From contig JAMLHH010000014.1 of assembly GCA_023957215.1 (NCBI GenBank), forward strand, positions 1-64,000: a DNA stretch of 64,000 nt, read 5' to 3'. This document shows positions 8,777-63,900 of the stretch, in pieces; positions within the stretch are counted from its first letter, which is position 1; every line of letters begins with the position of its first letter. Made by a program: the position numbers and the translations under genes. A model generated the notes under the pieces. The model had not been told where the DNA came from. It saw only the letters and a list, made by a program, of their open reading frames with translations, and did no database searches. The stretch is from Chitinophagales bacterium. Lineage in GTDB: Bacteria > Bacteroidota > Bacteroidia > Chitinophagales > JADIYW01.

Positions 8777-8956
8777 GACCGGTCAATTGAGTTGTAAAAA
8801 TGCAAAACAAAATCTATTCCATAACAGATTTTCAATAAGAAAGTAAAAAATAGACTCTTTTCTACTATTTGAACAAAGGCTTTTACTATCAAAATGACTT
8901 TACTATTTCAATTCACTAAAAACCTCTATATTTATCAATTAAAAATTTTGACTATC

Positions 8957-44117: not shown

Positions 44118-44903
44118 TTATAGATGAGGCAACAGGTGTGTCAAATCTTTTCTATAAGAGCTGCTCAATTCAAATTGTTGATTTTCTATCCAAACATGCT
44201 CTTTCGATATTTTCGTAATCATATTTGTATTCACAAAACAGCTTCTACTAATCTGTACAAAGTTTTGCGAGTAAATAACCGGCATTAATCTCAATGCATT
44301 GACAAGAGAACCTCTCAATGCGATTTTTTGTGAAGAGTGATGATTGTTTTCACAAACACTCAATACAGCATAATTTTTTGAAGATTCGACACAACATATA
44401 TCCTTCCAATAAATACGTTCGATAGAGCCTTTATTTTTAACAAAAAAAGAATCTTTGAATAATTTCTTTTCAGCTTCGTCGGCAATTTGTTGGTTTGAGA
44501 AATTATGTAAGGCGGTCTGTATTGTCGCAAAGAGGGTAGCAGTAGAAGCAGGTTTGACCAAATAGGCACTGGGTCCGGACTGAGTTGCTTTTGAAACTGT
44601 CACTGCATCACTAAAGGCTGTCAGGAAGATAAAAGGGAATTGGTAGTTTTCTTGAATAAACAGTCCCAACGCAATACCTTCATCTTTCCCATAGAGTTGA
44701 ATATCCAAGATAGCCAAATCAAAGTAGTTTTTCTTTAGAGCCACTTTGGCATCTTCGACGGTCAGGCAAGGTTCGGCTACATCATATCCTAAAGATTCCA
44801 AACTAATTTTTAAACTATCTGCAATAAAAATATCGTCCTCTACGATTAAGATTTTGATATTTTCCAAGCTCATATTTTCCGGATTTTTATACATTTCTAC
44901 CAT
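44118..44903 (-). CDS. LytTR-family response regulator
   Basis: 261 aa. Receiver domain about 16-130 (ILIVEDDIFIADSL, phospho-acceptor Asp in LAILDIQLYGKDEG, Thr in FLTAFSD, Lys in SAYLVKPAS), then a LytTR DNA-binding domain about 155-258 (IYWKDICCVESSKNYAVLSV, LRLMPVIYSQNFVQISRSCF, VNTNMITKI). LytTR proteins bind pairs of direct repeats about two helical turns apart, upstream of the -35 region. It begins 2 bp after the kinase stop, so the two are one operon. The likely targets are the giant genes next door, whose shared upstream element has direct repeats of this spacing. An alternative start is the ATG at 44873. Confidence 0.9.
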   Translation of the reverse strand: MVEMYKNPENMSLENIKILIVEDDIFIADSLKISLESLGYDVAEPCLTVEDAKVALKKNYFDLAILDIQLYGKDEGIALGLFIQENYQFPFIFLTAFSDAVTVSKATQSGPSAYLVKPASTATLFATIQTALHNFSNQQIADEAEKKLFKDSFFVKNKGSIERIYWKDICCVESSKNYAVLSVCENNHHSSQKIALRGSLVNALRLMPVIYSQNFVQISRSCFVNTNMITKISKEHVWIENQQFELSSSYRKDLTHLLPHL

Positions 44904-44905
44904 CT

Positions 44906-46876
44906 TTAGATATTGAGTTGTATATGATAATGAAACGCTTCTCCTTTGTAATTATTTAGTAATTCTCCTTTGATTTGACGACTTAGCAGTGTAATAATTC
45001 TCATACCCACACTACCTAAAACAGGTGAATATATATCTTGTTGCGCCGGCTCATCAGTAGAGACACCATTGTCAAAATATTCTAAAGAAAGTTGATGTTC
45101 ATCTACTAATTTAGCGTTGAAATGTATCACCAAGGGTGTATGATTGGTTTTCGCATGTTTCACACTATTGATCATCCATTCATTTAGCAACATGGCTATG
45201 GGCATTCCCAAAAATACTTCGATTCTGATATTTTCATCTATTCTCGTTATAATTTCCAAGTATCTCTCGTTTGTAAATTGTTGCTCAAAGTGAGAAATAA
45301 AATTTGAAAGGTAATCATTGAGATGGATTTTACCCGGATTTTTATGGTATAACTGTTCGTGTAAAGAAGCTATACTTTCTATCCTTTGCCGGGCGGCACT
45401 CAAATGTTTTTGAGTTTCTTCATTGTTACTACTATGTTCTTGAATATTTAAAAGACTATACACCATAAACAGGTTATTTTTGATTCGATGGTGCATTTCC
45501 TTGTTCAAGAGTTTATTTCGGTCAATTTCTTTATCTAATTCATTGTTTAATTGAGTGAGTTTCAAACTGTTTTTTTGATGTGTTTTACTCTGATAGTACA
45601 ACATGATTCCAATGATACTCAATAAAATCAGTCCTATACTCAAGAGCCAGTTTTCTCTTTTCTGTGCAGTCATTTTTGCCTCTACGACAGCCATTTCTTT
45701 TAGATTAGACATCTTGATAGAGTCTTCTTTGATAGAAAACTCATAGTTCATTTTTAACTGCTCTATTTCATTTTTACTCTCATCGTTAAAAATACTGTCT
45801 CTATATATAGTGGCTTTTTGATAATTAGTCAGGGCAGATTTATAATCACCATTGAGGCTATCTGTGATAGATAAATTTTGATAGATAGCGACTAAAAGAT
45901 TTTTCAGTTTTAAGTCTTGGGCGATTTGTAAAGATACATTCAAATGTTTTTTTGCTTCGGGTATATTGTTTTGTAAGTAATATATCTTCCCGATATTATT
46001 TTCCACCTCCGATATTCCTTTTCGGTCTTTAAATTTCTTTTTTAATTGTAAAGCTTTTTGGTAATCATCCATTGCTTTCTGATAGTTGCCAAGATTTTTA
46101 TATACAATTCCTAAACTATTGTAAAAATATCCCAATCCATAGCTATTGTCCAGACTTTCAAAAATATGAATTGCTTTCTGATGAAACTCTATGGCTTTTT
46201 CATACTTAGCCTGATTGTTATAAATCAGTGCCAGATTGTTATAAGTAATTGCCAAATTTTCTATATCGTTGGTTTTCTCCTGAATATTTATTGCTTTTTG
46301 GTAATAAGATACAGCCTCTTTTAATCGGTTGAGTGCAGCACTGACCATTCCGATATCGCGATAATCTTGTGAAATTTCGATAGAGTCTTTTTGGGCAATA
46401 TTTATTTTCAGTGCTTTTAAAAATGCATCCAATGATTTGGGATAAAGACTAAGTTGAAAATAGACGATTCCTAAATTAGAATAGATCTTACTTTGCTCCT
46501 TTTCTTTGTGTATTTCTTGATAAATTTTCAGGGCATTGAGATTGTATTGGATGGCTTCTTCATATCGGGACTGCATTAAAAAAACATTGGCAATATTACA
46601 AGAAGCCTTCGCTGTTCCAAATTGATAATGAGCCTTTTTTGCTAACGAAAGAGCCTTTTGTCCATATACCAAAGAAGTATCATATTCCTCCTCGTCAAAA
46701 TATCTTCTACTGAGTTGATTCCAAATATTTGCTTTAGCAGAATCGGATTTTATGTTATGAAGAATAGCTTTGAGACTGTCTATTTCACTTTGGAAAGCAG
46801 ACACTCTATCATTTGTAGTCAATAGTAAGATAAATACAAAAATCCGGCAACTATATTTTAAAACGCTTTTACCCAT
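44906..46876 (-). CDS. TPR-containing sensor histidine kinase (HisKA_2 type)
   Basis: 656 aa. Signal peptide about 1-28, then about eight tetratricopeptide repeats (about 45-370; for example YRDIGMVSAALNRLKEAVSY and YNNLALIYNNQAKYEKAIEF) in the periplasm, a membrane helix about 405-425 (WLLSIGLILLSIIGIMLYY), a short coiled coil, and the kinase module: phospho-acceptor His in EMHHRIKNNLFMVYSLL, and ATP-binding motifs NEWMINSVKHA, EYFDNGV and LGSVGMRIITLL. It transcribes away from the giant beta-helix gene, sharing the 201-bp divergent promoter region, and its partner regulator follows by 2 bp. The signal sensed is unknown; periplasmic TPRs suggest a protein or envelope cue. Confidence 0.9.
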   Translation of the reverse strand: MGKSVLKYSCRIFVFILLLTTNDRVSAFQSEIDSLKAILHNIKSDSAKANIWNQLSRRYFDEEEYDTSLVYGQKALSLAKKAHYQFGTAKASCNIANVFLMQSRYEEAIQYNLNALKIYQEIHKEKEQSKIYSNLGIVYFQLSLYPKSLDAFLKALKINIAQKDSIEISQDYRDIGMVSAALNRLKEAVSYYQKAINIQEKTNDIENLAITYNNLALIYNNQAKYEKAIEFHQKAIHIFESLDNSYGLGYFYNSLGIVYKNLGNYQKAMDDYQKALQLKKKFKDRKGISEVENNIGKIYYLQNNIPEAKKHLNVSLQIAQDLKLKNLLVAIYQNLSITDSLNGDYKSALTNYQKATIYRDSIFNDESKNEIEQLKMNYEFSIKEDSIKMSNLKEMAVVEAKMTAQKRENWLLSIGLILLSIIGIMLYYQSKTHQKNSLKLTQLNNELDKEIDRNKLLNKEMHHRIKNNLFMVYSLLNIQEHSSNNEETQKHLSAARQRIESIASLHEQLYHKNPGKIHLNDYLSNFISHFEQQFTNERYLEIITRIDENIRIEVFLGMPIAMLLNEWMINSVKHAKTNHTPLVIHFNAKLVDEHQLSLEYFDNGVSTDEPAQQDIYSPVLGSVGMRIITLLSRQIKGELLNNYKGEAFHYHIQLNI

Positions 46877-46905: not shown

Positions 46906-46938
46906 CAAAGGTAAATATTAAAAGTAGTGTATATCAGT
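46906..46938 (-). promoter_or_regulatory. Putative promoter of the kinase-regulator operon
   Basis: Minus-strand TACCTTTG (46906-46913) matches TAnnTTTG. At 21 nt upstream (46935-46938) the sequence is ACTG, a weak -33 box. This box overlaps the left end of the shared element described at 46932-46981, so a regulator bound there could also touch this promoter. Confidence 0.4.
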
Positions 46939-46981
46939 TTTTCGCACTCAAAAAACCCCTACTTCAAACTCATTTTTTTGA
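46932..46981. promoter_or_regulatory. Shared upstream element A (direct repeats, candidate LytTR operator)
   Basis: A 50-bp block found almost unchanged upstream of the second giant gene (57873-57921). It holds two 10-bp direct repeats, TTCGCACTCA (46941-46950) and TTCAAACTCA (46963-46972), 22 bp apart start to start. The second repeat runs into the -33 TTTG of the promoter at 46977. The placement is that of an activator site; assignment to the neighbouring LytTR regulator is inference. Confidence 0.6.
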
Positions 46982-47008
46982 TTGAAGCCTGTATAGTAGA
47001 TATTTTTG
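46977..47008 (+). promoter_or_regulatory. Promoter of first giant beta-helix gene
   Basis: TTTG (46977-46980), 20-nt spacer, TATTTTTG (47001-47008): an exact match to the Bacteroidota -33/-7 consensus. It would give a leader of about 60 nt to the ATG at 47078. Confidence 0.65.
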
Positions 47009-47077
47009 AATTTGTTATCCTAAAAAACTAACAATCAATTATATACCTATTTATATAACAACATTAAAATAAATAAT

Positions 47078-47689
47078 ATGAAAAAGTTTCGACTCTCTAT
47101 TATTCTTACCATTGTCCTAAAACTCAGTATCAATTTAACTTATGCTGTTGATTTATATGTTGATGCAAGTATCAGCACAAGTGGAAACGGGTTGTCTTGG
47201 ACAACTGCATTTAAAACTTTAACCGAAGCTATAAATTTGGCAAATCAGACAGGAACTTATAACAATATTTATGTAGCCAAAGGAACTTATTATCCGACCG
47301 GTCAACAAAACGGGACAGATAGAGATGCTACATTTTTTATAAACATTTGCGATTTAAAATTATTGGGTGGATATCCCAATGGCGGAGGTGTTAGAAACAT
47401 AAAAGATAATCCTACCATTTTAAGTGGAGATATTGGAGCATTGGGAAATATGAATGACAACAGCTACCATATCATGGTCATTCCGTGTAATGCTTTTAAT
47501 GAAAATTCTGTTGTAGTAGATGGTTTTATATTCCAGTATGGAAATGCCAATGGAAGTGGTTCTAACAAGTTTGGTATAAATGGCCTAAGTGTGCAAAGAA
47601 ACAGAGCCGGAGCAATAGCCATTTGGGACAATTATTCCGCAAATGGAGGAGTCAATATAAGAAATTGTATTTCAAATAATCGCTTCTGA
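47078..47689 (+). CDS. Giant beta-helix protein 1, N-terminal piece (frameshifted from the rest)
   Basis: 203 codons: a signal peptide (about 1-23, INLTYA) and the first part of beta-helix module 1 (DLYVDASISTSGNGLSWTTA, VAKGTYYPTGQQNGTDRDAT, ILSGDIGALGN). It ends at TGA 47687-47689. Comparison with the intact second gene (57986 onward) shows that this stop is due to a shift: residues ASDADAAVF of the expected sequence follow in the +1 frame (from 47682) and the original frame resumes at NCLF near 47735. Two indels about 60 bp apart thus cancel out. Restored, this piece and the next form one protein of about 3,575 aa. Either a damaged gene or a local sequence error. Confidence 0.75.
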   Translation: MKKFRLSIILTIVLKLSINLTYAVDLYVDASISTSGNGLSWTTAFKTLTEAINLANQTGTYNNIYVAKGTYYPTGQQNGTDRDATFFINICDLKLLGGYPNGGGVRNIKDNPTILSGDIGALGNMNDNSYHIMVIPCNAFNENSVVVDGFIFQYGNANGSGSNKFGINGLSVQRNRAGAIAIWDNYSANGGVNIRNCISNNRF

Positions 47690-47776
47690 TGCCGATGCTG
47701 CCGTGTTTATGAATAATGCCGGAGCAAGCTTTTCAATTGTCTCTTTCATGGAAATAAGGCGGCTTATGGTGGGGCT

Positions 47777-50700
47777 TTGCTCAGTTATAAAGATGACTTT
47801 CACCCTCTTACCGTTTTAAATTTTTGTACATTCTCCGGTAATAATGCTACAAGTGCGGGCGGCGCATTGAGATTTTCAGGGATTGATCCACCGGTAATCA
47901 GTAATTGTATAATTTACGGCAATAATTCCGGAATTTCAAATAACAATGTCAGCAATCCCAATGCTAATTATTCTAATTCATTAATACAAGGTATTACATC
48001 TACCGCTAACGGGAATATAAATGGTAATACCGACCCGCTTTTTACAAATCCTATCAATTACAGTCAAGCACCCACTATAAGCGGTAATTATCGTTTGTCT
48101 ATATTCAGCCCCTGTTTTGACAAAGGAAATATCAACGATATACCCAATGATTTAGCAGACGATATTATCACCGATTTGGACGGAAATGCGAGAGTGATGG
48201 GATGTGTTCCCGACTTAGGAGCTTATGAAATCAGAGCTGACCAAAACTATTATGTAGATGGTGTCAATGGCAATGATGTCAGTTCCGGTTTTACTTGGAA
48301 TACAGCCTTTAGAACTATGTCGAGAGCCATTCAAGAAGTCAATCAAAATTGCTATCCTTATAATTTTAATATTTATGTAGCTAAAGGAGTTTATTATCCT
48401 ACCGGTCAACAAAATAGTACAGATAAGGATGCCACGTTTTTAATCAAAAGAGGTGGCGTTAAGATTTACGGAGGTTATCCAAATGGCGGAGGCACAAGAA
48501 ATCTAAAAACAAATGCAACTATTTTCAGTGGAGATATCGGTTCGGTCAATTATTCTTCCGATAATAGCTACCACATCATGGTCTTTGCCGGAATTGACTT
48601 ACCGCAAGACAATATTCTCATAGACGGAATCCAATTTCAAGGTGGAAATGCAAGTGGCTCAGGGAATTTTACTTATAACAATTTTGCCCTACCCAGAAAT
48701 CAAGGAGCGGCAGTTTATATAAAATCAACTAATATCGGCAACAGGCTTCAATTTAATAATTGTGAATTTTCAGGTAATCAAGCCGGTAATAACGGTGGAG
48801 CTTTTTATATCGAAAACGCCAATCCTCTTTTCAGCAATTGTATAGGGATAGGGAATTATTCACCGGTCGGTTCTTTTGCAAGTATGTCGGGTGCAGCACC
48901 TAAGTTTATAAACTGTACGCTGTCAGGTAACAAAGGAAGCGGAGGTATCCTAAAAATGACTAACTCCAATCCGACTACTTTCAACTCTATTATTTGGGGG
49001 AATGAATCAAATTTTGATTCAGACTTTATTTCTACAAATACAATTCAATATTCCTTAGTGGAAGGGCTTGATATTTTAAACAACAATCATAATCTGAGCT
49101 CAAGACCTTATTTCTACAATTCGGTAGCTTATGAAAATGCACCAATTTCAGGAGGAAATTATCGTTTGCAGCCATGTAGTCCTGCAATTGATGCAGGGCT
49201 GAATAATTTTATCCCGAATAATATTTCTACCGATATATTGGGCAATCAGAGAATTACCAATAGCAAGACAGATATGGGTGCTTATGAATGGAATGGGAAC
49301 TATCCGACACCAAGATACTATGTAAAACAAGGAGGAACGGGAACAGGAAGCTCTTGGGATGATGCAATAGGAGATTTGCAAGAAGCCATCAATAAAGCTT
49401 GTGGTGAAACAGATATTTGGGTAGCAGCAGGTACCTATAAGCCACAAAGACGTTCATATAACTTAGATGAAGTAGATATATCTTCGGATCAATTTCAGAA
49501 TGCATTTGTCTTAAAACCTGATGTGAAGATTTATGGAGGTTTCCCGAATAACGGAAATCCGAATATGAACAATAGAAATTGGCAAAATAATCCTACAATC
49601 TTATCCGGAGATGCGGGTATAGAAGGGAATCAAAATGACAATGTAGCTCATGTGGTTATCTCATCAGGAAATATAGGTACAGCTGAGTTGAACGGATTTA
49701 CAATCAGAGACGGCATGGCATATTCTGCTACAGGTATCTATGTGACTGTTAACAGTAATACTATTGAAGGGCGGTTTGGCGGAGGAATGTATATCACAAA
49801 TTCTTCTCCGAGAATAGTCAATTGTACAATTATCAATAATACAGCAAGTAATATCGGAAGCGGAGTTTTTATAACGAATAGTTCTCCGACTTTTGAAAAT
49901 TGTCAGATAAAAAACAATACGTCCTATTCAAATGGTGGTGGAATCTATTCTTCAAATTCAAATCCCACCATCAACAATTCAATTATCAGTGGAAATACAA
50001 CCGTCAACGCCGGCTCGATAGGAGGAGGAATCTTCTCTGAAGGCAATTCAAATATTATCATTCGTAACAGTCTGATTTATAGCAACTCTTCAAAATCTTA
50101 CGGTGGAGGAATTAGTTCTTATGCCGCCAACACCCAATTGACCAATGTAACAATTTCGGGAAATACGGCATCTTATGGTTATAATGAAATGTATATTGGT
50201 CTTGGTGGAAATCATGTCATTAAGAACTCTATCATTTGGGGAAATGGAACAATTACTTCCGGGTTTACTACTGTAAAAAATAGTCTAATCCAAGGATATA
50301 GCGATACAAACAATGGCAATCTTTCCGGTGATACAGATCCTCTTTTTGCAGACAGGGCTAACGGAATATTTACGCTTTTACCTTGCTCACCGGCTATCAA
50401 TGCAGGAAGTACAGATACAGTAGGATTAGGACTTTCTTCATTAGACTTAAATTCAAAACCAAGAATATTCGGCAATAGGATAGATATGGGTGCTTACGAA
50501 TTTCAAAATCAAATCTTTGTCAATTCAAACGGTATAATATATGTGGATAGTGCCAATACTTGTAGCAACGGAGATGGCAGCAGTTGGAAGAATGCTTTAA
50601 AATCTTTTAATCGGGCTTTGCAAATTGCTGACAGTATCAATAATCAGTCCAATAGCTCTTTTCATGTTAATCAAATATGGGTGGCTAAAGGTACTTTTCA

Positions 50701-53700
50701 GCCGTCATCCGGTCAATCTTTTACAATGATAAAAGATGTAAAAATCTACGGTGGTTTTGCAGGGAATGAAACTACTCTAAATCAGAGAGATTTGAGTTTG
50801 GGTAATACTTCTATCCTAAAAGGCAATGATAATAGTGTCATCAGAAACAACAACAACGGTTTGTCGGCTACTGCTATATTGGACGGCTTTACCTTAGTTG
50901 AAGGTAAAACAACTTTGGGAGGGGGAGGAGTCTATAATTATAATGTATCACCAACTTTCTCAAATTGTTTCTTTTACAACAATTTTGCCACCATACAAGG
51001 TGGTGGTATGGATAACGAATCGTCCTCCAACCCAAACATCATCAATTGTATTTTTGAACAAAATATTTCACAAGGTAATGGTGGTGCGATTTTTAATTAT
51101 CTGAACTCTTCCCCTAAGATTCGTCAATGTAAATTTATTAATAACAAGGCTCAAAACGGAGGGGCTATCGGCAATAACAACAATGCCGCTCCTCAAATTG
51201 TGAACAGTATTTTTACACAAAACACAGCCACTGGTTCAGGTGGTGCCATCAATAACAATAATAATTCTTTGGCTGTCAAAATCACCAACAGTCTTTTGAT
51301 GAAAAATAAAGCAAATATAGGTGCTACTATCAATAGCGAAAATACTTTATCTAATCTTATCCTAAACTGTACCATCGTGAAAGACAGTGCAAATCAGGGA
51401 GGTATATTGACTAATGGAATTTCAACTATTATCAATACTGTCATTTGGGGCAATAGTAACAGCCCTTATGGTGGTGGAATCAATATAATCAATAGTGTTG
51501 TCCAAGGACAACCTAATGCTATCGATCCGCATTTTGCGGATTTCACCAATGATGACTTTAGAATAGGCAATGGTTGTTCGCCACTTATCAATGCAGGAAC
51601 ATTAACAGATACAGTGGGATTGGGCTTACTCAATTTTGACTTAGACGGCAATCCGAGGGTTTATAACTCCATGATAGATATAGGAGCTTATGAATACCAA
51701 GCAGATTTTGGACCTTGCGTAAATTCACAAGGAATCATTTATGTGGATAGTGCTTCCGTTTGTACAGATTGTGACGGTTCAAGCTGGGCAAAAGCATTCA
51801 GCAGTTTTGCAGAAGCCATTCAGGTAGCCGGAGATATGAATGCAAATGCGTTTTTACCTTCTGACTCCGTGAAGCAAATATGGGTGGCTAGAGGTATATA
51901 TCAGCCATCCGATGGCGAGTCTTTCACAATGCTTGCCAATGTGAAAATTTATGGCGGTTTTGCCGGAACGGAAACTGATTTGAGTCAAAGGGATTTGAAT
52001 GCAGGACATACCTCTGTCCTGAAAGGAAATGGAAACAGGGTAATCATGAATAAGGACAACGGCTTGAGTTTGTCAACCCTGTTAGATGGTTTTACGATTA
52101 CCGGTAGTGGCACTTTATATTCTATCAAGGGAGCAGGTATATATAATGAAAATGTTTCCATGTCGCTATCTAACTGTATTATTCAAAACAATTTGACTGA
52201 TAACGAAGGAGGGGGAATTTATGCCGCAGGAAGTACAGTTGTCCTAACGGACTGCCGGATTTTGTCAAATTATGCAGAAAATGACGGCGGTGCAGTGAGG
52301 TTGATAAACAATAGTCGGTTTATATTAAAAAATTGCATTGTAAAGAGCAATTCTTCAGGTATAAATTCAGGCGTAGCCGGAATCTCGGTTTATCAATCGC
52401 AAATTCAACTCATTAATAGTCTTGTGATTAAAAATTCAGGACTTTATCATGCAAATGGTTTGTATGCATCTAATTCTGATGTGCAGTTAATAAATACCAC
52501 TATGGCAGGGAATTATTTTAATGATATAGCCATTTATGATGGAACTACTGTCATACAGAATTCTATCATTGGTGCTAGTTACGGTATTTACAATGGCCCA
52601 TTAACGGTAGAAAACAGTTTGATACAGGGCAGTAATATTACCGGAGATGGCAATCTGTCCGGTACAACCGATCCTCTTTTTACTGATCCGAATAATAACG
52701 ATTACACACTTCAACCCTGCTCTCCTGCTGTCAATGCAGGGGGTAGCGATACTACCGGATTAAATATTCCTTTAAAAGACCTGATAAATAATTCTCGGAT
52801 TTCCGGCAGCAAGATAGATATGGGAGCTTATGAATTTCAATTTCCCAAAAATTATCATCTCGATATAAATGGTGTGTTATATGTAAATAATGCCATTAGT
52901 TGTGTTAATGGCATTGACGGTTCAAGTTGGAATACGGCACTGAATTCCTTTGCTCAGGCACTGCGTGTGGCAGACAGCATCAATACCCATACAGCGGATG
53001 AATCTGAACAAGTCAAACAAATCTGGGTTGCCAAAGGCACCTATCAGCCTGTACAAAATAGCTCCTTTACCATGATTAAAAACGTAAAAATTTACGGCGG
53101 CTTTGCGGGTACTGAAACCTCTTTAAGCCAAAGAGATTTGAATGCAGGAAATATTTCAATTTTAAAAGGGAACGGAAACAGTGTCATTCGAAATGATGAT
53201 AACGGATTAAATTCTTTAGCTCTTTTAGATGGCTTCACTGTTTCAGACGGGAGCAGCTCTAAGGGTGGAGGGGTTTATAATAACAACAGTTCGCCTTCCT
53301 TTGCAAATTGTATTTTTAAAAATAATCAGGCTACCGTACAAGGTGGTGGTATGCACAATGAATTTAGTGCCTCACCCATCATTACAAATTGCCTTTTTCA
53401 AAACAACTCTGCCGGTACGGGAGGTGGTGGCGTGTTTAATTATTACAACGCTTCACCCAAAATTTCACAATCCAGGTTTATTAGCAATACCTCCACTAAT
53501 GGCGGTGGTTTGGCTACCAATACCAATGCCAATCCGGTGATAACCAATTGCGAATTCAAATGGAATGTGGCCACCGGAACAGGCGGAGCCATCAACAACA
53601 ATTCTTCTGATGGTGTCAAAATCATCAATTGCCTGATCATTAGAAATAGATCGAACGATAACGGTGGTGGTATTAACAACGTAACTTCATCTCCGCTCAT

Positions 53701-56700
53701 TGTAAATTGTACCTTTTCTCAGGATACATCTGCGGTCAGTGGCGGAGCTATCAATAACAGCAATAGTTCGCCAACCATTGAGAACTGTATTATTTCGGGA
53801 AACACAAGTGGCATAGCTAATACCGGAACATCCTCTCCTGTCATTACGTACAGTTTGGTTCAGGAAATGGCTGCTGATGCGACAAATCATAATTTAGACG
53901 GAAGTTTATCGCCCTATTTCTTTAGTATTTCCAACGACAGTTATGGTCTATCCTCCTGTTCTCCCGCTATAAATGCCGGCAATCCGGATACTTCAAATTT
54001 GAATTTACCGCTCTTAGATTTTGGACAAAATCCAAGAGTCTTTGATAATGTCATAGACTTAGGTGCTTTTGAATTTCAATCATCTATAAGTATCCATCCG
54101 ACAAACGGAATATTATATGTCAATAAGAATAACCTTTGTTATAATAATACCGGTGCAAGTTGGACAAATGCATTTTCAGATTTTGATCAGGCATTACAAG
54201 CAACAGATTATATCAACTCCCATACATCCAATCCTTCCGATTCTGTCAAACAAATCTGGGTCGCCAAAGGTACTTACCAACCGTCTGCCGGTTCTTATTT
54301 CGTTATGATAAAAAATGTAAAGATTTACGGCGGTTTTGCAGGTAACGAATCTGATTTAAGCCAAAGAAATTTGAATGCAGGAAATATTTCGATTTTAAAA
54401 GGGAACGGAAACAGTGTCATTAAAAATGACAATAACGGTCTGAGCTCTACTGCTCTCTTGGATGGATTTACCATTCAGGATGGAAATAGCTCCAAAGGCG
54501 GAGGAGTCTATAATAACAACAGCTCGCCTTCCTTTGCAAATTGTATTTTTAAAAACAATCAGGCTACCGTTCAAGGCGGTGGTATGCACAATGAATTTAA
54601 TGCCTCACCTCTCATTACCAACTGTACGTTCCAAAACAACTCTGCCGGAACAGGAGGTGGTGGTGTATTTAATTATTACAATGCTTCACCAAAAATTTCA
54701 CAATCCAAATTTATTAGTAATACCTCCACCAATGGCGGAGGTTTGGCTACCAATACAAATGCCAATCCGGTGATAACCAATTGTGAATTCAAATGGAATG
54801 TGGCCACAGGAACAGGCGGAGCCATCAACAACAATTCTTCTAATGGTGTCAAAATCATCAATTGCCTAATCATCAGAAATAAGGCAATCGGTAATGGAGG
54901 TGGTGTTAACAACGCTTCTTCATCTTCATTCATTGCAAACTGTACCTTTTCTTTAGACAGTGCTGCTAATGGAGGAGCAATTTATAACAACAATAGCAAT
55001 CCGAATATTAAAAACTGTATTATCTCGGGAAATACAAGCGGCATGACCAATACAAATAATTCAAGCCCTGTTATCACTTACAGCTTGGTTCAGGGTATCA
55101 ATGGAGATATGAATAATCACATTTTAGATGGAAGTATTGACCCCGGTTTTGTCAATATAAGCAACGATGATTATACCTTATTCGCTTGTTCACCACTTAT
55201 CAATCAAGGTACTATTGATACTTCGGGATTAAATTTACCTGCAACCGATTTGAATCAACAACCCAGAATTTTTGAAAACAGGATTGATATGGGTGCTTAT
55301 GAAACACAGTCTCCCCATCAATTAGTTTCGGAAGTCACTTCACAACCCATTCAGACGGATAATTGCCAAAATACAAATTTATCCATTACCGCCAATAATG
55401 CGACTGCTTTTCAGTGGCAAATGAATGTCAATAATATATTTACGAATATTACCGACAATGCATTTTATTCAGGAACGACAAGTCCTGTTTTGAGTATTAA
55501 GGATACAACTCTTGCAGAAAATACTTATCGCTGTATCGTTATAGGTGATTGTCAAAATGATACTTCCTCAACTATTACTTATCATCACTACCCAAAAATA
55601 TACTTTGTAAAACCAAATGGCAGTGGTAATCAAAGTGGCAGTAGCTGGGAAAATGCAAGTAATGATTTACAATCCGTCATCAATAGTGCATGCCCGAATT
55701 CTCAGATTTGGGTTGCAGAAGGGGTCTATTATCCAACCCATCCTGCCGACAATCTTAATGTCGTTGATATTAACAATCGAAATAATTCTTTCATTTTAAA
55801 ATCTGATGTAAAAATTTTCGGAGGTTTCCCTCATACCGGAAATCCCGGATTCAACGACAGAGATCAAAATCTTCATCCGAGCATTTTATCGGGGGATATA
55901 GGTACTTTGAATAACCAAAGTGATAATGTATATCATGTCTTAATTTCAGCCGGAGATGTAGGAACAGCCGAGTTAAACGGTTTTACAGTTACACAAAGCA
56001 ATGCTGACGGGAATGCTTCTATAGTCATTAACAACCTAAGCATTGACCGTGGCAGTGGCGCCGGAATACACTTAGTCAACTCTTCTCCTATCATAGCTAA
56101 TTGCAGATTTATTCAAAATCAAGGAAAGTTCGGATCAGGTATTTTTATCAGTAATAGTCAACCCAATATTCAAAATTGTTTCTTTTACGGAAATCATGCT
56201 TCAGTACATGGTGCAGGGATTTTTAGTTTTCTATCCTCCAATCCATCTATCAGCAACTGTGTATTCTTTGGAAATAGAGCAGATGATAAAGGAGCCGGTA
56301 TGCTCAGCGATAACTCTACGGCAACTATCATAAATTGTACTTTTTCAGGCAATCAATCCATACAGGGAAATGGAGCAACGATTTATAATGTTGCCTCGCC
56401 GACCGTCATCACCAATTGCATTATTTACGGAAATAGTGGTGGAATTTATAATGAAAGCAGCACCTCGTCTGTTTCTTATTCTGATATACAGGAAGGTTAT
56501 GAAGGTGTAGAAAATGTAGATACAGATCCTTCATTTTTAAATGCTCCTGCATATAGCACCGCTCCTTTTGCAGTGGGAGATTACCGATTACAATCTTGTT
56601 CACCACTTATCAATCAAGGAGATAATTCCGCCATACCGCAAGAAACTGTAACAGACATCTCCGGCAATCCAAGGATACAAGATGGAAAGGTAGATATCGG

Positions 56701-57805
56701 AGCTTACGAAAACAAAGGCTACTCTTTACAAACTATTGCAAACACAACACTGACAGCCAATGACAATTGTCAAAACGCTGACAATTGGACACACTTTTCA
56801 AAAAAAGATGATGAAAATAAAATCTTCATCTCCATCAATACTCTTGGTCAGGATTTAGGTCAAATCTCCGCTTCTACGACACTGAACGAGAACTACGGAA
56901 AATACGCCCAAACAATTTCCATGCCTTACGGTCAAATGAAAAACTTTTATCCTTTGAATAGAAGTTGGACAATACAGAGTCAAAATACTTTTCTCCATCC
57001 CGTTGGTGTTAGATTCTATTTTAACAAAACCGACAGCGCGGATGTAGCCGCTTTAATCCCTATAGACAGTATGCAGCAATTTATTGTGTATAAAGTTGCC
57101 GGGACGGATGTATGGGATTCTACCGCTCAAAACTATACGGAATATCAATATGGAGCAGTGGCAGACTTGACACACTATACCTTCGGTACTTTTCAAGGTC
57201 TAAAATATGTCGAGTTTCAAGTCAGTAGCTTCAGCACAGGTACGATGGCAATCAAGATGGATGATGCAACTCTTCCTTTAGATTTATTAAGTTTTACCGC
57301 ATCGGTATCTGATGACAAAGTCCTCTTACAATGGCAGACTGTCAATGAAGTCAATGTCTCTCATTTTGAAATAGAAAGCAGTCCAGATGCTGTCGTATGG
57401 AATAAAATAGCTCATCAAAATGCACTCAACGGTATAGACCAAAAATATACAGTATGGGATGAAAATCCCCGTCACGGAGTGAATTACTACCGCTTAAAAA
57501 TGATAGATTTAGACGGTAGTTTTAAATATAGCAAGATAGTATCTGTCAGTCTCAATGCTCAAAGCCAAATACAATATATCATCTATCCAAATCCCAATAA
57601 GGGTCTTTTCTATATTCAGACAATAGGGCTGATTGATGATTATACAAAAGCATTTTTATATGACAGTCAAGGGAGAATACTTTTTGAAAAGAGGTTGCAA
57701 GACAATATCGAGCAACTCAACATCCCGACACTTGTTAGCGGTATTTACTTTTTAAGAATTGAAAACAATTCTAATGTTACAGTCAAAAAAATAATCGTGA
57801 AATAG
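47777..57805 (+). CDS. Giant modular parallel beta-helix protein 1 with T9SS sorting domain
   Basis: Main body, 3342 codons; the real coding frame resumes near 47735, and the TTG at 47777 is not a natural start. With the preceding piece it has eight PbH1-type modules of 350-410 aa, each opening with a YVD...GSSW...AL/F strand, IWVAKGTYQP, VKIYGGFAG, and closing with CSPAIDAG...D(M/I/L)GAYE, the choice-of-anchor Q-like ending. Modules start near 47147, 48240, 49312, 50533, 51735, 52876, 54112 and 55598; an Ig-like insert is at 55320-55590. The end has a fibronectin-like DKVLLQWQTVNEVNVSHFEI and a type A T9SS signal (YIIYPNPNKGLFYIQ to VKKIIVK). Exported by T9SS and likely surface-bound or released; adhesion is plausible, substrate unknown. 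Very Asn/Ser/Gly-rich. Confidence 0.85.
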   Translation: MLSYKDDFHPLTVLNFCTFSGNNATSAGGALRFSGIDPPVISNCIIYGNNSGISNNNVSNPNANYSNSLIQGITSTANGNINGNTDPLFTNPINYSQAPTISGNYRLSIFSPCFDKGNINDIPNDLADDIITDLDGNARVMGCVPDLGAYEIRADQNYYVDGVNGNDVSSGFTWNTAFRTMSRAIQEVNQNCYPYNFNIYVAKGVYYPTGQQNSTDKDATFLIKRGGVKIYGGYPNGGGTRNLKTNATIFSGDIGSVNYSSDNSYHIMVFAGIDLPQDNILIDGIQFQGGNASGSGNFTYNNFALPRNQGAAVYIKSTNIGNRLQFNNCEFSGNQAGNNGGAFYIENANPLFSNCIGIGNYSPVGSFASMSGAAPKFINCTLSGNKGSGGILKMTNSNPTTFNSIIWGNESNFDSDFISTNTIQYSLVEGLDILNNNHNLSSRPYFYNSVAYENAPISGGNYRLQPCSPAIDAGLNNFIPNNISTDILGNQRITNSKTDMGAYEWNGNYPTPRYYVKQGGTGTGSSWDDAIGDLQEAINKACGETDIWVAAGTYKPQRRSYNLDEVDISSDQFQNAFVLKPDVKIYGGFPNNGNPNMNNRNWQNNPTILSGDAGIEGNQNDNVAHVVISSGNIGTAELNGFTIRDGMAYSATGIYVTVNSNTIEGRFGGGMYITNSSPRIVNCTIINNTASNIGSGVFITNSSPTFENCQIKNNTSYSNGGGIYSSNSNPTINNSIISGNTTVNAGSIGGGIFSEGNSNIIIRNSLIYSNSSKSYGGGISSYAANTQLTNVTISGNTASYGYNEMYIGLGGNHVIKNSIIWGNGTITSGFTTVKNSLIQGYSDTNNGNLSGDTDPLFADRANGIFTLLPCSPAINAGSTDTVGLGLSSLDLNSKPRIFGNRIDMGAYEFQNQIFVNSNGIIYVDSANTCSNGDGSSWKNALKSFNRALQIADSINNQSNSSFHVNQIWVAKGTFQPSSGQSFTMIKDVKIYGGFAGNETTLNQRDLSLGNTSILKGNDNSVIRNNNNGLSATAILDGFTLVEGKTTLGGGGVYNYNVSPTFSNCFFYNNFATIQGGGMDNESSSNPNIINCIFEQNISQGNGGAIFNYLNSSPKIRQCKFINNKAQNGGAIGNNNNAAPQIVNSIFTQNTATGSGGAINNNNNSLAVKITNSLLMKNKANIGATINSENTLSNLILNCTIVKDSANQGGILTNGISTIINTVIWGNSNSPYGGGINIINSVVQGQPNAIDPHFADFTNDDFRIGNGCSPLINAGTLTDTVGLGLLNFDLDGNPRVYNSMIDIGAYEYQADFGPCVNSQGIIYVDSASVCTDCDGSSWAKAFSSFAEAIQVAGDMNANAFLPSDSVKQIWVARGIYQPSDGESFTMLANVKIYGGFAGTETDLSQRDLNAGHTSVLKGNGNRVIMNKDNGLSLSTLLDGFTITGSGTLYSIKGAGIYNENVSMSLSNCIIQNNLTDNEGGGIYAAGSTVVLTDCRILSNYAENDGGAVRLINNSRFILKNCIVKSNSSGINSGVAGISVYQSQIQLINSLVIKNSGLYHANGLYASNSDVQLINTTMAGNYFNDIAIYDGTTVIQNSIIGASYGIYNGPLTVENSLIQGSNITGDGNLSGTTDPLFTDPNNNDYTLQPCSPAVNAGGSDTTGLNIPLKDLINNSRISGSKIDMGAYEFQFPKNYHLDINGVLYVNNAISCVNGIDGSSWNTALNSFAQALRVADSINTHTADESEQVKQIWVAKGTYQPVQNSSFTMIKNVKIYGGFAGTETSLSQRDLNAGNISILKGNGNSVIRNDDNGLNSLALLDGFTVSDGSSSKGGGVYNNNSSPSFANCIFKNNQATVQGGGMHNEFSASPIITNCLFQNNSAGTGGGGVFNYYNASPKISQSRFISNTSTNGGGLATNTNANPVITNCEFKWNVATGTGGAINNNSSDGVKIINCLIIRNRSNDNGGGINNVTSSPLIVNCTFSQDTSAVSGGAINNSNSSPTIENCIISGNTSGIANTGTSSPVITYSLVQEMAADATNHNLDGSLSPYFFSISNDSYGLSSCSPAINAGNPDTSNLNLPLLDFGQNPRVFDNVIDLGAFEFQSSISIHPTNGILYVNKNNLCYNNTGASWTNAFSDFDQALQATDYINSHTSNPSDSVKQIWVAKGTYQPSAGSYFVMIKNVKIYGGFAGNESDLSQRNLNAGNISILKGNGNSVIKNDNNGLSSTALLDGFTIQDGNSSKGGGVYNNNSSPSFANCIFKNNQATVQGGGMHNEFNASPLITNCTFQNNSAGTGGGGVFNYYNASPKISQSKFISNTSTNGGGLATNTNANPVITNCEFKWNVATGTGGAINNNSSNGVKIINCLIIRNKAIGNGGGVNNASSSSFIANCTFSLDSAANGGAIYNNNSNPNIKNCIISGNTSGMTNTNNSSPVITYSLVQGINGDMNNHILDGSIDPGFVNISNDDYTLFACSPLINQGTIDTSGLNLPATDLNQQPRIFENRIDMGAYETQSPHQLVSEVTSQPIQTDNCQNTNLSITANNATAFQWQMNVNNIFTNITDNAFYSGTTSPVLSIKDTTLAENTYRCIVIGDCQNDTSSTITYHHYPKIYFVKPNGSGNQSGSSWENASNDLQSVINSACPNSQIWVAEGVYYPTHPADNLNVVDINNRNNSFILKSDVKIFGGFPHTGNPGFNDRDQNLHPSILSGDIGTLNNQSDNVYHVLISAGDVGTAELNGFTVTQSNADGNASIVINNLSIDRGSGAGIHLVNSSPIIANCRFIQNQGKFGSGIFISNSQPNIQNCFFYGNHASVHGAGIFSFLSSNPSISNCVFFGNRADDKGAGMLSDNSTATIINCTFSGNQSIQGNGATIYNVASPTVITNCIIYGNSGGIYNESSTSSVSYSDIQEGYEGVENVDTDPSFLNAPAYSTAPFAVGDYRLQSCSPLINQGDNSAIPQETVTDISGNPRIQDGKVDIGAYENKGYSLQTIANTTLTANDNCQNADNWTHFSKKDDENKIFISINTLGQDLGQISASTTLNENYGKYAQTISMPYGQMKNFYPLNRSWTIQSQNTFLHPVGVRFYFNKTDSADVAALIPIDSMQQFIVYKVAGTDVWDSTAQNYTEYQYGAVADLTHYTFGTFQGLKYVEFQVSSFSTGTMAIKMDDATLPLDLLSFTASVSDDKVLLQWQTVNEVNVSHFEIESSPDAVVWNKIAHQNALNGIDQKYTVWDENPRHGVNYYRLKMIDLDGSFKYSKIVSVSLNAQSQIQYIIYPNPNKGLFYIQTIGLIDDYTKAFLYDSQGRILFEKRLQDNIEQLNIPTLVSGIYFLRIENNSNVTVKKIIVK
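53012..53650 (+). repeat. Tandem module repeat, copy in module 6
   Basis: Closely matches 54245-54883 in module 7 at a constant offset of 1233 bp (411 codons), so the protein frame is kept. The central part (GGGVYNNNSSPSFANCIFKN, NNQATVQGGGMHNEF) is nearly identical in both, showing a fairly recent in-frame module duplication. Confidence 0.75.
54211..56578 (+). repeat. 2.37-kb direct repeat, copy 1 (inside giant gene 1)
   Basis: Near-identical to 61633-64000 at a fixed 7422-bp offset (2474 codons, in frame). It covers most of module 7, the Ig-like insert and most of module 8. About ten single-base differences are seen in the first 620 bp; I saw none in the parts compared after that. The copy in gene 2 is cut by the window end, so the true repeat may be longer. 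Confidence 0.9.
54245..54883 (+). repeat. Tandem module repeat, copy in module 7
   Basis: Partner of the module 6 block. It is also part of the longer segment shared with the second giant gene, so three close copies of this stretch exist in the window (offsets 1233 and 7422 bp). Confidence 0.75.
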
Positions 57806-57872
57806 AGATGAAATACTTATTTGTTTTTTGTTGAAGTATGGTTTATCATGAAGGTAAAGATGTAAGCAACAC

Positions 57873-57921
57873 TATCAGTTTTTCACACTCAAAAAACCAC
57901 TGTTCGCACTCATTTTTTTGA
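57873..57921. promoter_or_regulatory. Shared upstream element B (direct repeats, candidate LytTR operator)
   Basis: A 49-bp counterpart of element A. Direct repeats TTCACACTCA (57882-57891) and TTCGCACTCA (57903-57912), 21 bp apart start to start, immediately upstream of the -33 TTTG. The A-tract and T-tract that follow each repeat are conserved too, whereas sequence on both sides of the element differs from that of gene 1. Confidence 0.6.
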
Positions 57922-57947
57922 AATGGTGAGGGGATTTAATAAATTTG
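57917..57947 (+). promoter_or_regulatory. Promoter of second giant beta-helix gene
   Basis: TTTG (57917-57920), 19-nt spacer, TAAATTTG (57940-57947), an exact -33/-7 match. A leader of about 30 nt would precede the ATG at 57986. No intrinsic terminator with a T-run was seen between the two giant genes, so readthrough is possible as well. Confidence 0.65.
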
Positions 57948-57985: not shown

Positions 57986-60900
57986 ATGAGAACGAAAAAA
58001 TACTTCCTCAATCTATTCTTCATATTACTTTTTTGCATGGGAAAGAATATGGTTTTTGCACAAACAAATCTTTATGTAGATGCGAGTGTAAGTATAAGCG
58101 GGAATGGTAGCTCTTGGACGACTGCCTATAAAACTTTAAAAGAAGCTATAAACGTTGCTAATACTACCTATGGGGGAGTTACTATTTCCGTAGCCAAAGG
58201 TACTTATTATCCAACTGGTCAACAAAGTGGAACAGATAGAGATGCTACCTTTTTAGTAACCAAGGAGGACATAAAAATATTGGGTGGTTTCGCTTCAGGA
58301 GGTGGATATAGAGATATGAAGAATAATCCAACAATTTTAAGTGGAGATATTGGAGTTTCGGGTCTCAGAACCGACAATAGTTATCATATTATGACGATTG
58401 CCAAATATGGGGGCATGGAAGAAGGGATCATAGTGGATGGTTTTATCTTTCAGGATGGGCAGGCTAATGGAAGTGGGACATTAACTATGAATGGGGAAGC
58501 TATTGGAAGGAACAGAGCCGGAGCCCTAGCAATTTGGACTTCTTTTGGAAGTTCAGGCTATAATGTTTCCATTAGGAACTGCATTTTTCGTGCAAATGTA
58601 GCATCCGATGCAGGTGGAGCCGTATTTACCCAAAACAGTACCACTTCTTTTTTTAACTGCCTGTTTAGTGGAAATTTGGCTAATTATGGTGGAGGAGCTT
58701 TAATTTATTTTACGAATAATATAACACCACCAGTTGTTTTTAATTTTTGCACCTTTAGTGGGAATAATGCTACTAATACAGGTGGAGCCATTCGTTTTTC
58801 CGGAGCTAATATGCCTATAGTGAAAAACTCTATCATTTATGGTAATAGCAATGGCATATCAAACAACAACGCACTGAATCCTATGTATTCCAATTCAATG
58901 ATTCAAGGTTTGACCTCCACCAATAATGGAAATCTGAATGGAAATTTACCAGCCAATAATCCTAATTTTATCAACCCCATTTCTCATACGCAGGCACCTG
59001 CCAAGGGTGGTGATTATCATATACCACCGGTTTTTAGCCCTGTTTTAAATATTGCCAACGTAAATGATATTCCTACAAATGTAAGTACAGATTTGGATGG
59101 GAATGCACGGTATATGGGTTGTGGTCCGGATATGGGTTGCTATGAAGCCAGATTTGAAAGCTATAATATTTATGTGGACAGCACAAACGGGAATGATGGC
59201 AATACCGGTACCTCATGGGGTAGTGCCTATAAAACCCTGTCAAAAGCATTGAGTACTCCCGCTTCTTACAACTGTAATAATTATGTATTTAATATTTATG
59301 TAGCAAAAGGGACTTATTATCCTACAGGGCAGCAAAACGGGACAGATAGAGATGCCACATTTTTAATTGACAGAGGAGGAATTAAAATTTACGGTGCTTA
59401 TCCTCCGGGCGGAGGAGTACGCAATTTAAAAACCAATACTACTATCTTAAGTGGTAATATCGGTGCATCAGGTGTTTCAACAGATAATAGTAATCATGTG
59501 ATGGTTATAGCCAATATACTTCCCGCAATGGATAGTATTGTTATAGACGGAGTTAGTATTCAAGAGGGAAATGCTACCGGGCAATCAACAGTCAATTATA
59601 ATGGTTACGCACTTAATCGTAATCAGGGTGCCGGCATTTTTATGGGACAAGTAGGAATTGGCAATCGAATGGTAGTAAGAAACTGTACGATATCAGGTAA
59701 TAAAGCTAATAATAACGGTGGTGGCATGATGATTAAAAATTCAAATCCTGTTTTCGTCAACTGTATCGGAAGTGGCAATTTGAGTATGACAAGTGGTGGT
59801 TTTGCGGCATTGAATACTGCCAATCCTCAATTTATTCAATGTACGATTTCAGGGAATCGATCCACCAATAATGGTGCTGTTTATAACCTCAATAATTCAA
59901 ATCCCGTTACGCTGAATTCCATTATTTGGAATAATTCAACACTTTTTGAAAATACCAACTCCTCCAATACCATCCGATATTCTTTGGTTACAGGAATAGA
60001 TACGTTCGATGGGAATCATAATATGAATACCAATCCCTTTTTTTATAATGCTATCCCTTTTTCATCTGCACCAATAATTGGCGGTAATTTTCGGCTACAG
60101 CCTTGTAGCCAGGCATTAGATGCCGGTAGTAATGCCAATTTACCAATGAATATTAATCAGGACATCTTAGGAAATCAAAGAATTGTCAACAGCACTGTTG
60201 ATATGGGAGCAGTAGAGCGTAATGGGAATTACGGTATTACAAGATATTATGTAAAACAAAGTGCTACCGGTTTTGGATCTTCATGGGCAGATGCTACCGG
60301 TGACTTACAAGATGCGATAAATCAGGCTTGCGAAGGAGCTGAAATATGGGTGGCATCAGGCACGTATAAACCAAATCGTCCTGCTAATGATTTAAACACA
60401 ATTGACCCCAATAACCATTACAACTCCTTTGTACTCAAATCAGGCGTTAAGATTTATGGTGGATTTCCTGCGACCGGCAATCCCACAATGAATAATCGAA
60501 ACTGGAAAAATAATGTAAGCATATTATCCGGTGATTTGGGTGCAGTCGGCGTTGATTCTGATAACGCATTTCATGTGGTCATTTCAGCCGGTTATGCAGG
60601 CAATCCTGAACTTGACGGTTTTACGATTACAAATGGAAACGTAAATTCCAATACTACTTATGGCGTAGTTGGCATGACGGTCAATGGTGGAAATGTAGAT
60701 AATTTTAGCGGTGGCGGAATTTTCATTGTTAATTCATCTCCAATAATAAGCAATTGCAAAATCATTAATAATAAGGCAGAAAATTATGGAGGAGGTGTTT
60801 TTACCGACAATGGAAACCCTATCTTTCAAAATTGCCAAATACTTTCAAATATTTGTACGGATGCTTATGGTGGTGGAATGTATTTTTCTAGTGCCACTCC

Positions 60901-63900
60901 TACTATTGATAATTGCTTAATTAAAAATAACCAAGCACAATTAAATGGAGGTGGCATTTATAATTTCACTTCAATATGTAAAGTTAATAACTCTATAATT
61001 TCATCTAATAAGACTTTATTTGCCTCCGGAGGTGGTATTTCTTCCCATTATAATTCTGAACTCAGAATGATAAATTGTTTAATAAACAATAATAGCTCTC
61101 CTAATTTTGCAGGCGGTATATATGGTATTGATGCAAACATTAATCTTATTAATGTGACAGTTGCCAATAATATGGCTGGTCAATACGGCGAATTTTACAA
61201 TTATTACCCTACTAGTACCATCAAAAATTCAATTATTTGGGGGAATGGTGTCAACACGTCAGGAATAACAGCCAATAACAGTTTAATTCAGGATTTCAAT
61301 GATAATAATAATGGAAATTTACCTGGCAACACTGATCCCTTATTTTCAAATGCGACAAATCAGGATTATAGTTTAACGGCATGTTCCCCTGCCGTAAACG
61401 CTGGTAGCGATGACACCACCGGATTTAATCTTCCACTTACAGATTTAAGCGGTCTTCCTAGAATCAGTGGCGGAAGAATAGATTTAGGAGCTTATGAATT
61501 TCAAAACTACTATTCACCCAATGCCAGTGGTATTTTATTTGTGGATGGAACTAATATTTGTGCACATGGAGACGGTTCAAGTTGGTCATCTGCACTAAAG
61601 AAATTTGATTTTGCCATATCTATTGCAGACAGTATCAACTCCCATACATCCAATCCTTCCGATTCCGTCAAACAAATCTGGGTCGCCAAAGGTACTTACC
61701 AACCGTCTGCCGGCTCTTATTTCGTTATGATAAAAAATGTAAAGATTTACGGCGGTTTTGCAGGTAACGAATCTGATTTAAGCCAAAGAAATTTGAATGC
61801 AGGGAATATTTCGATTTTAAAAGGGAACGGAAACAGTGTCATTAAAAATGACAATAACGGTCTGAGTTCTACTGCTCTCTTGGATGGATTTACCATTCAG
61901 GATGGAAATAGCTCCAAAGGCGGAGGAGTCTATAATAACAACAGCTCGCCTTCCTTTGCAAATTGTATTTTTAAAAACAATCAGGCTACCGTTCAAGGCG
62001 GTGGTATGCACAATGAATTTAATGCCTCACCCATCATTACCAACTGTACGTTCCAAAACAACTCTGCCGGTACGGGAGGTGGTGGTGTATTTAATTATTA
62101 CAATGCTTCACCAAAAATTTCACAATCCAAATTTATTAGTAATACCTCCACCAATGGCGGAGGTTTGGCTACCAATACCAATGCCAATCCTGTGATAACC
62201 AATTGTGAATTCAAATGGAATGTGGCCACCGGAACAGGCGGAGCCATCAACAACAATTCTTCTAATGGTGTCAAAATCATCAATTGCCTAATCATCAGAA
62301 ATAAGGCAATCGGTAATGGAGGTGGTGTTAACAACGCTTCTTCATCTTCATTCATTGCAAACTGTACCTTTTCTTTAGACAGTGCTGCTAATGGAGGAGC
62401 AATTTATAACAACAATAGCAATCCGAATATTAAAAACTGTATTATCTCGGGAAATACAAGCGGCATGACCAATACAAATAATTCAAGCCCTGTTATCACT
62501 TACAGCTTGGTTCAGGGTATCAATGGAGATATGAATAATCACATTTTAGATGGAAGTATTGACCCCGGTTTTGTCAATATAAGCAACGATGATTATACCT
62601 TATTCGCTTGTTCACCACTTATCAATCAAGGTACTATTGATACTTCGGGATTAAATTTACCTGCAACCGATTTGAATCAACAACCCAGAATTTTTGAAAA
62701 CAGGATTGATATGGGTGCTTATGAAACACAGTCTCCCCATCAATTAGTTTCGGAAGTCACTTCACAACCCATTCAGACGGATAATTGCCAAAATACAAAT
62801 TTATCCATTACCGCCAATAATGCGACTGCTTTTCAGTGGCAAATGAATGTCAATAATATATTTACGAATATTACCGACAATGCATTTTATTCAGGAACGA
62901 CAAGTCCTGTTTTGAGTATTAAGGATACAACTCTTGCAGAAAATACTTATCGCTGTATCGTTATAGGTGATTGTCAAAATGATACTTCCTCAACTATTAC
63001 TTATCATCACTACCCAAAAATATACTTTGTAAAACCAAATGGCAGTGGTAATCAAAGTGGCAGTAGCTGGGAAAATGCAAGTAATGATTTACAATCCGTC
63101 ATCAATAGTGCATGCCCGAATTCTCAGATTTGGGTTGCAGAAGGGGTCTATTATCCAACCCATCCTGCCGACAATCTTAATGTCGTTGATATTAACAATC
63201 GAAATAATTCTTTCATTTTAAAATCTGATGTAAAAATTTTCGGAGGTTTCCCTCATACCGGAAATCCCGGATTCAACGACAGAGATCAAAATCTTCATCC
63301 GAGCATTTTATCGGGGGATATAGGTACTTTGAATAACCAAAGTGATAATGTATATCATGTCTTAATTTCAGCCGGAGATGTAGGAACAGCCGAGTTAAAC
63401 GGTTTTACAGTTACACAAAGCAATGCTGACGGGAATGCTTCTATAGTCATTAACAACCTAAGCATTGACCGTGGCAGTGGCGCCGGAATACACTTAGTCA
63501 ACTCTTCTCCTATCATAGCTAATTGCAGATTTATTCAAAATCAAGGAAAGTTCGGATCAGGTATTTTTATCAGTAATAGTCAACCCAATATTCAAAATTG
63601 TTTCTTTTACGGAAATCATGCTTCAGTACATGGTGCAGGGATTTTTAGTTTTCTATCCTCCAATCCATCTATCAGCAACTGTGTATTCTTTGGAAATAGA
63701 GCAGATGATAAAGGAGCCGGTATGCTCAGCGATAACTCTACGGCAACTATCATAAATTGTACTTTTTCAGGCAATCAATCCATACAGGGAAATGGAGCAA
63801 CGATTTATAATGTTGCCTCGCCGACCGTCATCACCAATTGCATTATTTACGGAAATAGTGGTGGAATTTATAATGAAAGCAGCACCTCGTCTGTTTCTTA

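Follow-up and report, generated by a model that had tools for sequence, protein, structure and literature searches.

Two closely similar promoter elements probably connect a LytTR two-component system with two giant genes for predicted T9SS beta-helix proteins in the 64,000-nt stretch of a Chitinophagales contig analyzed here (the window). Element 1 lies between the divergent kinase-regulator operon and giant gene 1, and element 2 lies in front of giant gene 2. Both are predicted operators, and we consider it likely that the regulator encoded at 44118-44903 binds the two of them and switches on giant genes 1 and 2 along with its own operon. The parts are of known kinds, and their wiring appears to be undescribed so far. 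With just two copies, both private, next to the regulator that probably binds them, the predicted operator offers an unusually clean test case.

The elements match the initial annotation, which had described TTCxCACTCA-like repeats 22 and 21 bp apart with adjoining A or T tracts. Element 1 (TATCAGTTTTTCGCACTCAAAAAACCCCTACTTCAAACTCATTTTTTTGA, 46932-46981, plus strand) carries TTCGCACTCA at 46941-46950 and TTCAAACTCA at 46963-46972, 22 bp apart from start to start, and element 2 (TATCAGTTTTTCACACTCAAAAAACCACTGTTCGCACTCATTTTTTTGA, 57873-57921, plus strand) carries TTCACACTCA at 57882-57891 and TTCGCACTCA at 57903-57912, 21 bp apart. In both, the half-site reads TTCRNACTCA as a direct repeat on the plus strand, with an A tract after repeat 1 and a T tract after repeat 2. 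Over 50 aligned columns the elements are identical at 44 (88%), with one gap, and share the core TATCAGTTTTTC[G/A]CACTCAAAAAACC[C/A]CT..TTC..ACTCATTTTTTTGA. The two upstream regions align locally with a score of 68, compared with 38 for the best of 2000 dinucleotide-shuffled pairs. The non-coding flanks of the elements reach best local scores of only 18 and 24, which is chance level; the earlier statement that sequence outside the element is unrelated thus holds for these flanks but not for the genes themselves, which are tandem paralogs. Taken singly, the internal repeats are modest, with 8/10 identical positions in element 1 (reached by 10.6% of shuffles, P 0.11) and 9/10 in element 2 (1.3%, P 0.013), and the case therefore rests on the pair of elements.

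Each element runs directly into a promoter, as the annotation had described, and both promoters are of the Bacteroidetes -33/-7 type (consensus TTTG / TANNTTTG, PMC6847099). The gene 1 promoter (46977-47008, plus strand) consists of TTTG at 46977, N20 and TATTTTTG at 47001-47008, and that of gene 2 (57917-57947, plus strand) of TTTG at 57917, N19 and TAAATTTG at 57940-57947, giving the common pattern TTTG-N20/N19-TAnnTTTG. The gap from the end of repeat 2 to TTTG is 4 bp in both. On the minus strand, a predicted -7 box (TACCTTTG, 46906-46913) situated 30 bp ahead of the kinase start suggests a promoter for the kinase-regulator operon. Element 1 also sits just upstream of this predicted divergent promoter, in keeping with the proposal that gene 1 and the operon have it in common, and autoregulation is therefore probable.

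The operon encodes a predicted TPR sensor histidine kinase of the HisKA_2 type and a predicted LytTR-family response regulator, both on the minus strand. The kinase (656 aa, 44906-46876) begins with an N-terminal hydrophobic segment, followed by TPR repeats (TPR_12, 7e-43), a transmembrane segment recognized by eye and HisKA_2 (6.7e-19); its ATPase domain falls below the Pfam threshold and is visible by eye. The regulator (261 aa, 44118-44903) combines a receiver (PF00072, 3.1e-15) with a LytTR domain (PF04397, 1.2e-5), both over the curated cut-off. When named genomes were scanned for the regulator, the only match was one at 37% in a MAG of an unclassified Bacteroidetes. Other response regulators similar to this one are present in the same genome (9 matches), and regulators of this type number 3-25 matches per sampled genome across the order.

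Both giant genes are predicted to carry the C-terminal sorting domain of T9SS cargo. Within the long open frame of gene 1 (47078-57805, plus strand), Por_Secre_tail (PF18962, 1e-11) covers residues 3269-3341. The reading frame of gene 1 is broken near its start: a TGA at 47687-47689 follows 203 codons, a different frame is used to ~47735 (about 50 bp), and the original frame then resumes, which may reflect a genuine lesion or a sequencing error. Gene 2 (57986-64000, plus strand, continuing outside the window as far as contig position 65227) is intact over 2413 codons, with an N-terminal hydrophobic segment discernible by eye and the same T9SS tail as gene 1. The annotated pair of giant beta-helix T9SS proteins is thus borne out in beta-helix repeats and tails, but the broken frame of gene 1 weakens the picture of a working pair.

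Pattern searches of the 2.88-Mb genome, on which all genome-wide statements here are based, revealed that the element is private to these promoters. The exact double half-site TTCNNACTCA-N-TTCNNACTCA occurs in 2 places, elements 1 and 2, so that the search for the double site upstream of other genes that the annotation had recommended yielded no third exact match. Allowing 1 mismatch at fixed spacing added none across the whole genome, and the 26-nt first half of the element, at up to 3 mismatches, likewise finds solely elements 1 and 2. With up to 3 mismatches in the double half-site and both orientations counted, there were 45 matches at spacer 12 versus 23 in a reversed-pattern control, and 51 versus 50 at spacer 11. 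An attempt to define a genome-wide regulon by relaxed patterns was abandoned, the numbers of matches at 2-3 mismatches being the same as those of the reversed-pattern control or up to about double. There may be a small excess of weak sites at spacer 12, and there is no strong third site in the genome. Among 396 genomes of the order, 7 contain the exact double half-site; in the present genome the matches are elements 1 and 2, and in three others (G234, G359 and G341) they overlap or recur as tandem/dispersed repeats, and none was linked to any regulator or any giant gene.

The architecture of the elements is that of a LytTR operator. LytTR sites comprise two repeats of 9-11 nt with spacers of 11-13 nt (PMC4847170), and LytTR regulators mostly act as activators from sites upstream of the -35 region (PMC11347149). 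In elements 1 and 2 the repeats are 10 nt long and are separated by 12 and 11 nt, respectively, and repeat 2 ends 4 bp short of, and just upstream of, the -33 box in both promoters, consistent with the original reading of LytTR direct repeats about 21 bp apart before the -35 region. A motif-free scan asked which direct-repeat spacing is favored in intergenic regions near homologs of the regulator, using 15-mers with at least 12 identical positions, a cut that elements 1 and 2 (8/10 and 9/10) themselves fall under. At 51 homolog loci, spacing 21 was found in 13-15 regions and spacing 22 in 4, versus 0-3 (mean 0.9) for other spacings; random intergenic regions gave 1 at spacing 21 and 1 at spacing 22. 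A held-out set of 60 further homolog loci was then scanned with the spacing prediction fixed in advance and with N runs and tandem arrays removed. Spacing 21 again stood out, with 10 regions compared with a mean of 1.2 and a maximum of 4 for other spacings (binomial P about 1e-6), while the smaller discovery peak at spacing 22 was not repeated (0 regions). Beside homologous regulators, the spacing of element 2 is therefore favored in both discovery and held-out loci, and that of element 1 in discovery loci only. The spacing-21 peak persists with other word sizes, and within 1 kb of the regulator in the held-out set it is modest at the 12/15 cut (2 regions versus 0.25 per other spacing). Repeats at 21 bp are also over-represented farther off in the same loci (11/254 far regions versus 23/265 near ones, P = 0.05). 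The signal therefore extends past the immediate surroundings of the regulator and may include other LytTR targets. This repeat signature offers a general route to matching such regulators with their target genes.

Close homologs carry comparable repeats upstream of their own regulator genes, namely TTTTTTCGTCACCAAGAA repeated at 22 bp in G308 and TTTTTTTCGACCACAAAAA repeated at 21 bp in G234. Together with TTTTTTCGTCCACAATAA in G204 (opposite-strand reading), these TTTTTCG-type repeats resemble TTTTTCGCACTCAAAAAA of element 1. A merged consensus, TTCRNNCNCA, matched at 13/14 or more positions in 3/126 near regions versus 0/392 far or random regions; it was partly built from G308 and G234, such that only the third match (L205) is independent and only the test of 21/22-bp spacing is free of circularity. 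A scan of the regulator-homolog loci with TTCNNACTCA found nothing over controls, and a loose 15-mer consensus (TTTCRNCNNCAANAA) was dropped as far too permissive. A separate direct repeat, TACCATTCAGAACAT, recurs at 21 bp in different genomes of the order (L187:4891, L268 in intergenic 8604-9400, and L290:9204); some of these sites lie away from a regulator gene, and the repeat may serve a different LytTR regulon as its operator.

Such regulators also stand near T9SS-tail genes in other genomes. In G308, the repeats separate the regulator from a divergent 3084-aa T9SS-tail gene, with a TPR kinase adjoining, an arrangement like that of the window. Of the 51 regulator homologs, 19 have a T9SS-tail gene within 6.5 kb, compared with 2 of 20 random loci (P = 0.04 in a post hoc test), and genes of at least 1100 aa beside the homologs were not significantly enriched (23/51 versus 8/20 controls). 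The pairing of regulator and T9SS-tail gene appears to recur, with no fixed synteny.

Two genomes of the same genus, G001 and G002, present a different configuration. At another locus they encode giant-gene homologs whose open frames span 5944 and 5942 residues, at about 50% identity, and both the kinase-regulator pair (best regulator match E about 1e-8) and the element are absent. Directly upstream of the giant gene is an AraC-type regulator (HTH_18) with an N-terminal membrane part, for which the present genome has no counterpart. The G001 and G002 giant promoters share the dyad TGTAACNATNCAANANTTACACAA, which is matched perfectly at no other position in either genome. This arrangement, a 5.9-thousand-residue homolog behind an AraC-type membrane regulator and a private conserved dyad, is seen at L096:16202-17700 and L097:2560-4064. 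Beside rpmB and ftsY, the same two genomes carry a different giant beta-helix T9SS-tail gene (2649 aa; L102:5619-13568 and L103:7209-15158), and in the present genome the rpmB-ftsY neighborhood is home to the kinase-regulator-giant cluster.

From these three genomes, we infer that the kinase-regulator pair, the element and the giant genes behave as a local unit, for which relatives have another regulator and another element. The initial annotation had held that absence of the element from relatives keeping the genes would count against its proposal; G001 and G002 formally present that case. In our view this falls short of refuting the proposal, because the kinase-regulator pair is missing as well and another regulator sits next to the gene together with a conserved dyad of its own, as would be expected had the regulator been exchanged. 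The generality of the proposed sensing and display module is weakened, the module being absent from every relative sampled. A broader reading, which we regard as tentative and somewhat more doubtful than not, is that giant genes in the genus may be rewired by exchange of a regulator together with its private element (a LytTR pair with 21/22-bp repeats in one species, an AraC-type regulator with a dyad in two), and that LytTR operators across the order could be read purely from sequence by their 21-bp repeats, with regulator-specific half-sites. The regulator difference among close relatives hints at how control of giant surface proteins evolves.

In the mechanism we favor, the TPR sensor kinase, with its TPR part probably outside the inner membrane, would phosphorylate the regulator, which would then bind two direct repeats spaced two helical turns apart on one face of the DNA and directly against the -33 box. 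Once bound, the regulator would bring polymerase to both giant-gene promoters, and the position of element 1 upstream of the predicted kinase-regulator promoter means that the system probably controls itself. The annotated idea of a TPR kinase switching on a giant pair gains from the common element, its privacy at 0-1 mismatch and the LytTR geometry, and loses from the frame of gene 1 and the lack of generality. A rival account would be that the elements are alike because gene 2 is a tandem copy that brought its promoter along, the likeness being inherited or recently homogenized and devoid of functional meaning. Genes 1 and 2 are indeed tandem paralogs, and their last 3594 nt are 99.7% identical (window 54211-57804 versus contig C6 61633-65226), a 3.6-kb C-terminal stretch that, as read from the alignment, is a product of recent homogenization/conversion or segmental duplication although the 5' parts are old paralogs. 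In those N-terminal parts the proteins are 56% identical, and four-fold degenerate sites match at 18/47 (0.38) versus 0.29 expected at saturation. Unconstrained DNA would not keep 88% identity between unrelated flanks and beside near-saturated four-fold sites, which indicates selection on the promoter element; fresh conversion of just 50 bp is opposed by the six differing columns, an indel among them. Inheritance by itself would not account for the elements, and we judge this account very unlikely.

The elements might alternatively be operators of some other regulator, LytTR or unrelated, with the neighboring pair a bystander. The several similar response regulators in this genome and the occurrence of 21-bp repeats at some distance from the regulator gene in the loci of its relatives would allow this. 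Against it, the element is private to the giant genes and to the kinase-regulator operon, which shares element 1, the element and the pair are missing together from two same-genus genomes, and the closest regulator homologs have similar repeats beside themselves; we therefore consider a bystander role improbable. Finally, the regulator might bind both elements but repress the giant genes, with phosphorylation relieving or strengthening the repression. CoxC, a LytTR protein, acts as a repressor through repeats that overlap the -35 region (PMC11347149), and here repeat 2 ends only 4 bp short of the -33 box. Yet the repeats stop before that box rather than covering it, which is the usual activator position in the family (PMC11347149), so that activation by the neighboring regulator is preferred and repression appears rather unlikely.

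Several known systems share features with this one. AgrA, VirR, YpdB, AlgR and RcoM are likewise LytTR regulators, with REC and LytTR domains and repeats of ~10 nt placed 21-22 bp apart by the -35/-33 region, and the RcoM half-site TTCNNGCA (PMC11347149) resembles TTCRNNCNCA. In contrast to these, the present system would combine Bacteroidota -33/-7 promoters, a TPR HisKA_2 kinase, giant secreted targets and its own half-site, TTCRNACTCA. SprB-type giant T9SS surface proteins are similarly very large and repetitive with a Por_Secre_tail, whereas the giant genes here encode right-handed beta-helix repeats and adjoin a LytTR two-component system that would control them. The remFG-sprCDBF operon of F. 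psychrophilum depends on sigma-54-type and SM5 promoter motifs (PMC9723704) and, unlike the control proposed here, does not rely on an adjacent LytTR pair. The closest parallel in G001 and G002 shares an about 50% identical giant protein, an adjoining regulator and a private conserved promoter element, but there the place of the LytTR pair is taken by an AraC-type membrane regulator and that of the direct repeats by the dyad TGTAAC...TTACACAA. The annotation knew of no description of this pairing, and our search of the open-access literature on LytTR with T9SS, SprB, Bacteroidetes sites and TPR kinases found none either; nor did the literature searched contain a LytTR DNA site mapped in Bacteroidota.

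Elsewhere in the same genome, the 24-mer TTTAACAATCCTAAATTCACACAA is present in six copies (contigs C4, C17, C34, C67 and C70) and may mark one end of a mobile element. By eye, the ORF at C6:77306-78586 resembles a transposase gene.
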